From the NCBI GenBank assembly GCA_903837785.1, contig CAILVY010000270.1, positions 1 through 64,000 on the forward strand: DNA of 64,000 bases, written 5' to 3'. This document shows positions 51,713 through 58,210 of this stretch, one piece after another. This stretch comes from Candidatus Hydrogenedentota bacterium. Lineage in GTDB: Bacteria; Hydrogenedentota; Hydrogenedentia; Hydrogenedentales; CAILVY01. Under the pieces are notes generated by a model. The model did no database searches, was not told the origin of the DNA, and saw only the letters and a list, made by a program, of their open reading frames with translations. Position 1 is the first letter of the stretch; each line of letters opens with the position of its first letter. A program made the translations under genes and the position numbers.

Positions 51713-53149
51713 CTAGAGCAACATATTCACGTACTTGGGAACTGTGTAGTGATCGAGGCCTTCAGCGCCGCCTTCGCGGCCGAAGCCGGATTTCTTTACA
51801 CCGCCGAAGGGCGCTTCGGCGGCCGCAATGACGAGGTTGTTCACGCCGATCATGCCGGCTTCGAGGCCTTCGGCCGCGAGGAACGCGGTGCGGAGGTCGC
51901 GGGTGAAGATGTAGCCCGCCAAGCCGAATTCGGTGGCATTGGCCTGGGCGAGCGCGTCGTCGAGGCTGGAGAAGGGCGCGATCGGGGCCACGGGGCAGAA
52001 CGGCTCTTCGTGCATGATCTTCATGGAGGGATCAGCAGCGCCGAGCACTGTGGGCTGGAAGTAGAAGCCCCGGGAGAAGGCGGGATCGCGGCGTCCGCCG
52101 CATTCGAGGCGCGCGCCTTTGTCGAGGGCGTCCTGCACGAAGGCTTCCGTCGCTTCGAGGCGGCGGCGGTTGGCGAGCGGGCCGATTTCCGTGGCCGGAT
52201 CGCGGCCGTCGCCGAGACGCAGGGACTTTGCCACTTCGACGAAGCGGCCGGTGAAGCGATCGGCCGCGGCCTCGTGCACGTAGAAGCGGCTGGCCGCGAT
52301 GCAGACCTGGCCGTTGTTGCGGAACTTTCCGCGAGCGGCAATCTCGGCCGCGCGCTCGACGTCCGCGTCCTCGAAGACGAGCACGGGGGAGTGTCCGCCG
52401 AGTTCCATCGTGCAGGGCTTCACGCCTTCGGCGCAGAGGCGCAGGAGTTCCTGGCCGACGGGCACGGAACCCGTCAGCGTCACTTTGCGGATGATGTCGG
52501 AGGCGATGAGGTGCCTGCTGATGAAGGCCGAACTGCCGGTGACGACATTGACCACCCCCGCGGGAATGCCCGCGTCCTGACAGGCCTGTGCGAGACAGAG
52601 CATCGTGCGCGGGGCCTCGGAGGCGGGCTTTACGATGATGGAGCAGCCCGCGGCGACGGCCGGGGCCACTTTGCGCGCGGGCAGGAGGGCGGGGAAGTTC
52701 CACGGGCTGAACGCGGCGACCGGGCCGATCGGTTCGCGCCAAACCAGGATGCGGTGTGCCCGCGAATGGCCGTCCACGGTCCGGCCATAGATGCGCCGGG
52801 CTTCGTCGGCGTACCAGTCGAACTGGTCCGCGGCCGCATTGACCTCCGCCCTGGCCTCGGCGACGGGCTTGCCCTGTTCCTCCGTGAGGACGAGCGCGAT
52901 GTCGTCCGCGCGTTCGCGCACGAGCGCCGCCACGCGGCGGAGGACCGCGCTCCGGGACCATGCGTCGACCTCGCGCCAGGAACGCCACGCGCGATCCGCG
53001 GCCGCCAGGGCGCGGTCGAGGTCGGCTGCGGTTGCCGCAGGCACGGCATCGGCCCGCTCCTCGTTGGCGGGGTTGATGATGTCCATCGTGCGTCCGTCGG
53101 AGGACGGCACCCATTCTCCGTCGATCAACATCAGATTCGGAACCGGCAT
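51713..53149 (-). CDS. gabD: Aldehyde dehydrogenase, succinate-semialdehyde type
   Basis: A 478-aa NAD(P)-dependent aldehyde dehydrogenase of GabD type. I use the ATG complementary to 53147-53149 (MPVPNLMLIDGEWVPSS); the ORF-track start 124 codons upstream reads through a repeat region. Signatures are FSPWNFPALLPARKVAPAVA, VTLTGSVPVGQELL, the catalytic Glu in CTMELGGHSPVLV and the catalytic Cys in NNGQVCIAASRF, then PFGGVKKSGFGREGG. The exact substrate (succinate semialdehyde or another aldehyde) is inferred only from the subfamily look. The ATG follows a phased repeat 150 bp upstream. Confidence 0.88.
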   Translation of the reverse strand: MPVPNLMLIDGEWVPSSDGRTMDIINPANEERADAVPAATAADLDRALAAADRAWRSWREVDAWSRSAVLRRVAALVRERADDIALVLTEEQGKPVAEARAEVNAAADQFDWYADEARRIYGRTVDGHSRAHRILVWREPIGPVAAFSPWNFPALLPARKVAPAVAAGCSIIVKPASEAPRTMLCLAQACQDAGIPAGVVNVVTGSSAFISRHLIASDIIRKVTLTGSVPVGQELLRLCAEGVKPCTMELGGHSPVLVFEDADVERAAEIAARGKFRNNGQVCIAASRFYVHEAAADRFTGRFVEVAKSLRLGDGRDPATEIGPLANRRRLEATEAFVQDALDKGARLECGGRRDPAFSRGFYFQPTVLGAADPSMKIMHEEPFCPVAPIAPFSSLDDALAQANATEFGLAGYIFTRDLRTAFLAAEGLEAGMIGVNNLVIAAAEAPFGGVKKSGFGREGGAEGLDHYTVPKYVNMLL

Positions 53150-53300
53150 TGACTGCCCCTCCCAGAGGATTCGTTTCCCAGCCCCGGCGGGTGGGGCCGG
53201 ATCGATTGTACACAAAGGCGTTGGAGAGATACAGAGATTGCGAAAGCTGCGAGGCTGCCCGTCGCGGAGGCCTTCGCATGTGACCGATTGCCGACAGGTC

Positions 53301-53399
53301 TTTCGTGGAAATAGACGCACTTTTCGTGGAAATAGACGGCCCATTTTGAAAATAGACGGGGCTGTTTTGTGCATAGATGACGTGAAATGGAAATAGAAT
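53301..53399. repeat. Five phased AAATAGA(CG) repeats, about 20.5-bp period
   Basis: The core ATAGA starts at 53311, 53332, 53352, 53373 and 53393. The gaps are 21, 20, 21 and 20 bp, which is two helical turns. The first two units are identical over 17 bp (TTTCGTGGAAATAGACG, 53301-53317 and 53322-53338); the later ones decay to TTTTGAAAATAGACG, GCATAGATGACG and TGGAAATAGAATG. They lie upstream of the aldehyde dehydrogenase gene, on whose strand the unit reads CGTCTATTTCCACGAAA. They may be an operator array or a decayed short tandem repeat. Confidence 0.7.
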
Positions 53400-53581
53400 G
53401 CAGGCCGAAATCGCGTGCCAGAGTGGGTTAAGGCATTGGCATTCCATGGCTTACGTTTCTGCGGCCGCGGGGCGAAGTGCGGATCTGGGCAATTCACGTG
53501 GTTCTTGGGTCCAGGATTCAATTGTCGGAGGGGAGACCGGGCTCATGGCGCGGGGTGAGGTACGCACCGATAGGCGCCGGA

Positions 53582-53603
53582 CCCGCAGCCGTTCGGCTGC
53601 GGG
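53582..53603. repeat. Perfect GC-rich hairpin in the gene-free stretch
   Basis: CCCGCAGCCG and CGGCTGCGGG pair with a TT loop. No T-tract follows on either strand. It sits in the 53150-54035 interval, where I see no credible gene: ORFs there encode low-complexity sequence and lack ribosome binding sites. Confidence 0.6.
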
Positions 53604-53735
53604 AGCGCATCTGACTTCTCCTATAGATCCTGACGGGGCATTGCATTCTGCGCGGGAGGACGCCGGGGAAGCGGGGGAGTGGGAATTCGGGAAACGAGGG
53701 GGTGGGGTGAGATTAAGTGATTCGGGGAGAAGGGG

Positions 53736-53760
53736 ATGGACGTTATGGACGTTATGGACG
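53736..53760. repeat. 9-bp tandem repeat ATGGACGTT
   Basis: Two full and one partial unit (ATGGACGTT, ATGGACGTT, ATGGACG) lie in a G-rich segment. No function is evident. Confidence 0.65.
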
Positions 53761-53900
53761 GGGGGAAGCGGCAGAGGTGCCGGGAAAGCGGGAAGATGGG
53801 GTGAGGCAAAGTAGACGCACTAGTTTACTTTTTTGGGGTGGTGCGATTATGGGAGCCTGGGCAGAGGCGGCCGGAGGGTGTCGCCGAAGTATGGGAGTTA

Positions 53901-53930
53901 CCCCCCCCTGCCCCCCCGCACGCGGGGGGG
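53901..53930. repeat. Poly-C run and C7/G7 hairpin
   Basis: A run of eight Cs is followed by CCCCCCC-GCACGC-GGGGGGG. The stem is very strong but no T-tract follows; it may be an assembly-sensitive spot. Confidence 0.6.
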
Positions 53931-54035
53931 TGAAGCAATCAGAAGATGAACGTGGGAATTGGAAGCAGATGCAGACGCGAAGATCCCAAAAATACCTGCG
54001 CGTCACGGGTGCTTCGCACCGCACAACCGACGGTG

Positions 54036-58052
<4,017 letters not shown>

Positions 58053-58210
58053 ATTCCCACCTTTCTTAGATTCCCACGAGGCCCAGACTAGCATCTTCTC
58101 CCTGGAAAAGGCACGTTCTCCGACAGCATCGCCGGGTTTCTTCCAAACGGGCGCTTGACGGTTGGGGAAGCCGGGGGCACAATTAGGGGACATGATGAGG
58201 ATGTCTCCAC

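Follow-up and report, generated by a model that had tools for sequence, protein, structure and literature searches.

A phased array of five ATAGA repeats lies in a duplicated non-coding block of a Hydrogenedentota genome

Introduction

Tandem DNA sites in helical phase are, as such, of a well-known kind. The iterons of plasmids such as RK2, P1 and R6K are sets of 2-7 direct repeats, each 17-22 bp long (RK2 and P1 have five), which are bound cooperatively in a manner that depends on helical phase; a shift of half a helical turn between two sites abolishes the cooperativity (PMC4980987). Among the tandem operators of the AraC/XylS type, XylS at the Pm promoter occupies bipartite direct-repeat sites, comprised of two 15-bp repeats with a box A of TGCA and a box B of GGTA (PMC5481539). 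The ends of IS21-family elements, which hold the sites of IstA, carry direct repeats at a fixed spacing that has been published as 23 bp (PMC10122671). Herein, we describe an array of five direct repeats in a stretch of 64,000 nucleotides (the window), and compare it with these systems.

Results

Five copies of ATAGA start at positions 53311, 53332, 53352, 53373 and 53393 of the 64-kb window, with spacings of 21, 20, 21 and 20 bp. These coordinates, listed in a first-pass annotation of the DNA, were confirmed, as was the identity of two units over 17 bp: the 17-mer TTTCGTGGAAATAGACG is found at 53301-53317 and again at 53322-53338 (units 1 and 2). The same annotation placed the copies exactly two helical turns apart; with a mean spacing of 20.5 bp (82 bp over four steps), the two-turn phasing is approximate. 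Elsewhere in the genome, a search allowing up to two mismatches found no further copy of the 17-mer, apart from one unrelated match with two mismatches.

The array is genuine and far beyond chance expectation. On the forward strand of the 64 kb, ATAGA was the sole 5-mer forming a chain of at least four copies at 20/21 bp. None of the 40 dinucleotide shuffles contained such a chain of any 5-mer, and their longest ATAGA chain was 1. When 68 genomes of the phylum were searched with a three-unit pattern, the only matches in the array's own genome were the window array and a second locus, and the remaining matches were mostly isolated chance matches or a 7-bp microsatellite. The features of the window locus are collected in Table 1.

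Table 1. Features at and around the array (window coordinates)
Feature	Position	Strand	Remarks
Aldehyde dehydrogenase (ALDH) gene	51713..53152	-	Neighbour; PF00171; best NCBIfam match succinate-semialdehyde dehydrogenase, below cut-off
Weak collinear extension of homology left of the array	53248..53296	+	Banded alignment p 0.0005-0.005
Non-coding block common to the window and G000:C377:39886-40401	53297..53831	+	73% identity (first 350 bp: ~78%)
Array of five direct repeats, core TGnnnATAGA(cgg)	53301..53399	+	Spacing 21/20/21/20
Unit 1 core, TGGAAATAGA	53306..53315	+	17-bp context identical to unit 2
Unit 2 core, TGGAAATAGA	53327..53336	+	
Unit 3 core, TGAAAATAGA	53347..53356	+	
Unit 4 core, TGTGCATAGA	53368..53377	+	Same in C377 copy
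Unit 5 core, TGGAAATAGA	53388..53397	+	Same in C377 copy; overlaps -10-like TAGAAT at 53394-53399 (by inspection only)
Body of block	53400..53660	+	No codon periodicity, no significant RNA structure
Hairpin AAAGTAGAC-GCACTA-GTTTACTTT, then a T run	53808..53831	+	Stem kept in C377 copy, without the T run
Leucine-rich-repeat (LRR) protein gene with (EG)n linkers	54036..58193	-	Neighbour

The second locus lies in the same assembly, where a blastn search aligned it to the window block over 538 columns. This copy, on contig C377, has all five units at the same 21/20/21/20 spacing, and its unit 2 reads ATAGG. A search of 67 further genomes of the phylum, one of the same genus among them, gave no third copy of the block. 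The block had no match among 50,697 phages and 72,556 plasmids, and none in IMG/VR by exact pattern. With a sequence profile of the array, the two copies scored 112 bits and no other match exceeded 18 bits; the weaker matches that we inspected lacked the array, and the two copies alone were found with confidence. Pairs of GAAAATAGAC at 20/21 bp in 257 Gb of genomes, and pairs of AAATAGAC in IMG/VR, were for the most part coiled-coil repeats in coding sequence or else unrelated arrays, and the block accompanied none of them; the exact AAATAGAC pairs in C25 of the same genome and in G049 lie inside genes.

The surroundings of the two copies differ. The window copy lies between tandem genes. In C377, the copy is flanked by a glucose/sorbosone dehydrogenase-PKD gene and, convergent with it, a WD40-like (PD40) gene, both with their 3' ends towards the block. 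An empty site for the C377 copy could not be demonstrated, the same-genus genome having no match to the region. Between the copies, the core of the block (53297-53660, ~360 bp) shows 1 indel event and 84 substitutions, compared to 4 indel events and 44 substitutions in the tail (core versus tail p=0.057). In the variable tail, a short tandem repeat, TGGACGTTA, present two to three times at 53737-53760, is lost from the C377 copy. To the left of the array, homology reaches 23-49 bp beyond the edge of the block in the banded alignment, while the same flank gave p 0.29 in a local alignment without the collinearity condition; the extension is thus supported but not certain. Since this weak collinear homology passes the block edge, the array is probably internal to the block. 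All of these evolutionary comparisons rest on two copies from one assembly of 407 contigs (93% complete, 3.7% contamination); because the assembly is fragmented, it may lack further copies and may include a foreign contig.

Substitutions between the copies are unevenly distributed over the array. The core TGnnnATAGA changed at 1 of its 35 positions, compared to 21 of the 64 positions elsewhere in the array, i.e., the linkers (Fisher p=2.7e-4). The TG of this core was picked after viewing the alignment; ATAGA alone, prespecified by the first-pass annotation, gives the safer test (1/25 versus 21/74, p=0.007). In units 3-5, every core position was kept (21/21), as were 30 of the 37 other positions. 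These three units, which had been described as decayed, are therefore the best conserved between the copies, and it is units 1 and 2 that diverged outside the core. The window units 1 and 2 resemble each other more than they resemble their C377 counterparts, and therefore some turnover of the repeats has occurred without selection. Because the core was kept at 34/35 positions compared to 43/64 in the linkers, the motif and its phasing look constrained.

A protein-coding body was rejected: mismatches between the copies are spread flatly over codon positions, and the body has no similarity to IstA. A structured RNA gene was likewise rejected. The fold and alifold z-scores were not convincing on either strand (0.04 and -0.85 on the forward strand; -2.08 and -1.86 on the reverse strand), and the block matched no Rfam family, with one sub-threshold chance match, and no tRNA or tmRNA. 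A consensus promoter scan of the block found no site. There are two weak hints of a rightward transcript, the -10-like TAGAAT in unit 5 and the hairpin at 53808-53831. In the most far-reaching reading, the block would be a new lineage-specific non-coding control element, present twice in the genome: an untranslated RNA gene of ~425 nt (~53406-53831, forward strand) with its promoter under a five-site phased operator. We regard this extended interpretation as unlikely.

Discussion

We propose that the five repeats are tandem sites of one putative sequence-specific DNA-binding protein, and that this row would serve the duplicated block itself; to this proposal we give about even chances. Each of the five sites would present the core TGnnnATAGA, often followed by CGG, to the predicted protein. 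Adjacent protomers would be placed ~20.5 bp apart, sitting on almost the same side of the helix, and would bind cooperatively. As a probable internal part of a non-coding block of ~540-630 bp that is present twice in the genome, the array most likely serves this block rather than the ALDH gene; it would be a nucleoprotein assembly or control region, which may lie upstream of an untranslated transcript reading rightwards. We favor binding sites because the core and the spacing are kept in a copy that is only 73% identical, has unrelated neighbours and shows one indel event in the core of the block. Cooperative binding of a protein on one DNA face had been suggested in the first-pass annotation together with a role at the ALDH gene; the row of sites gains from the survival of core and phasing while the linkers vary, and the link to ALDH is not supported.

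Among described systems, the array would work like iteron arrays and tandem operators, and we assign it to neither class. With the AraC/XylS type it shares phased direct-repeat sites with a conserved core. The bipartite sites of XylS at the Pm promoter are reportedly also spaced by about two turns; the window array, however, has five units instead of two, and its unit sequence is unrelated. Like plasmid iterons, it has several phased direct repeats within the 17-22 bp range. Unlike them, it belongs to a chromosomal, two-copy block with no match to plasmid sequences, and no rep gene was found nearby among the neighbours examined, for which profile scans covered part of the ORFs.

The first-pass annotation pointed to the ALDH gene, whose start it placed about 150 bp from the array; in that reading, a cooperative regulator would bind an operator ~150-250 bp upstream of the start. 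The array does precede the ALDH gene, which has its start codon at 53152; however, the C377 copy has convergent genes on its two sides, their 3' ends towards it. G001, the genome of the same genus, has no array at its ALDH orthologue, where ~88 bp lie between the preceding gene and the start, and the 500 bases before the aligned part of two further orthologues, from two other genomes, contain no ATAGA/TCTAT. Of the annotation's own two grounds for refutation, absence upstream of orthologous genes thus holds, and the lack of any other copy does not, since one exists. The array is not specific to the ALDH gene and is independent of its neighbouring genes, which makes the operator reading very unlikely. 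The case also shows that lying upstream of a gene says little about the target of a phased array. Less easily set aside, though still on the unlikely side, is that the block is inert DNA between genes, duplicated long ago as a segment or repeat along with a short tandem repeat to which nothing binds, so that the likeness of the copies reflects shared ancestry. There are only two copies, absent from all other genomes searched, 27% diverged and without sharp edges; units 1-2 appear locally homogenised, and the excess of core conservation comes from 99 bp. Against this reading stand the core positions, kept far better than the linkers, the unchanged spacing, and the distribution of indels between core and tail given above (p=0.057).

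The array may instead be the relic of a transposon end with multiple transposase-binding sites, of the IS21, Tn7 or Mu type, left by an element that is extinct or non-autonomous. That the copies are dispersed and their flanks unrelated fits this origin, as do the 4-6 direct repeats that IS21-family elements of the phylum bear beside istA, which are similar in kind. However, the spacing of those repeats is 23 bp compared to 20/21 bp here, no terminal inverted repeat was detected (p 0.88 and 0.91), and the array is probably not terminal, as homology extends to its left. The body has no istA remnant, and the flanking genes are other than istA/istB. The single above-cut-off rve match in the array's own genome is an IS30-like ORF; this ORF is also one of two weak, below-cut-off matches to IS21 profiles there. 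An IS21-family end was therefore rejected on its spacing, the lack of a terminal array with an inverted partner, and the lack of istA/istB. Transposon ends in general are quite improbable, given the probable position of the array inside the block and the lack of a terminal inverted repeat. The least probable origin that we considered, and a very doubtful one, is an iteron-like site for replication or partition, from a plasmid or phage since lost. Five direct repeats of ~20.5 bp do suit iterons in number and length, but neither the 72,556 plasmids nor the 50,697 phages contained a match, the neighbours examined encode ordinary metabolic and surface proteins, and no Rep/Par gene was among those searched.

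If binding were confirmed, the array would open a way to an uncharacterised DNA-binding protein, and to a non-coding element duplicated in a genome of a phylum that has been little studied.

Several minor observations were made along the way. Other AAATAGAC arrays at 20-21 bp occur at L104 1380-1490, L110 1180-1280 and L102 3654-3683; one lies between clpX and lon-like genes in Neobacillus novalis, the others are intergenic in two Bacteroidales-type MAGs, and no transposase is among the ORFs listed beside them. The long (EG)n linkers of the LRR surface protein (54036-58193) create long spurious ORFs on the opposite strand; surface proteins rich in (EG)n would point to Hydrogenedentota. A C/G-rich palindromic repeat at 53902-53935 has dozens of near-identical matches dispersed over the same genome. 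IS21-family elements of the phylum at L057 1232-1347, L060 1256-1361, L079 1246-1360 and L056 2620-2690 have 4-6 direct repeats next to istA, spaced by 23 bp, where two per end are described as typical.
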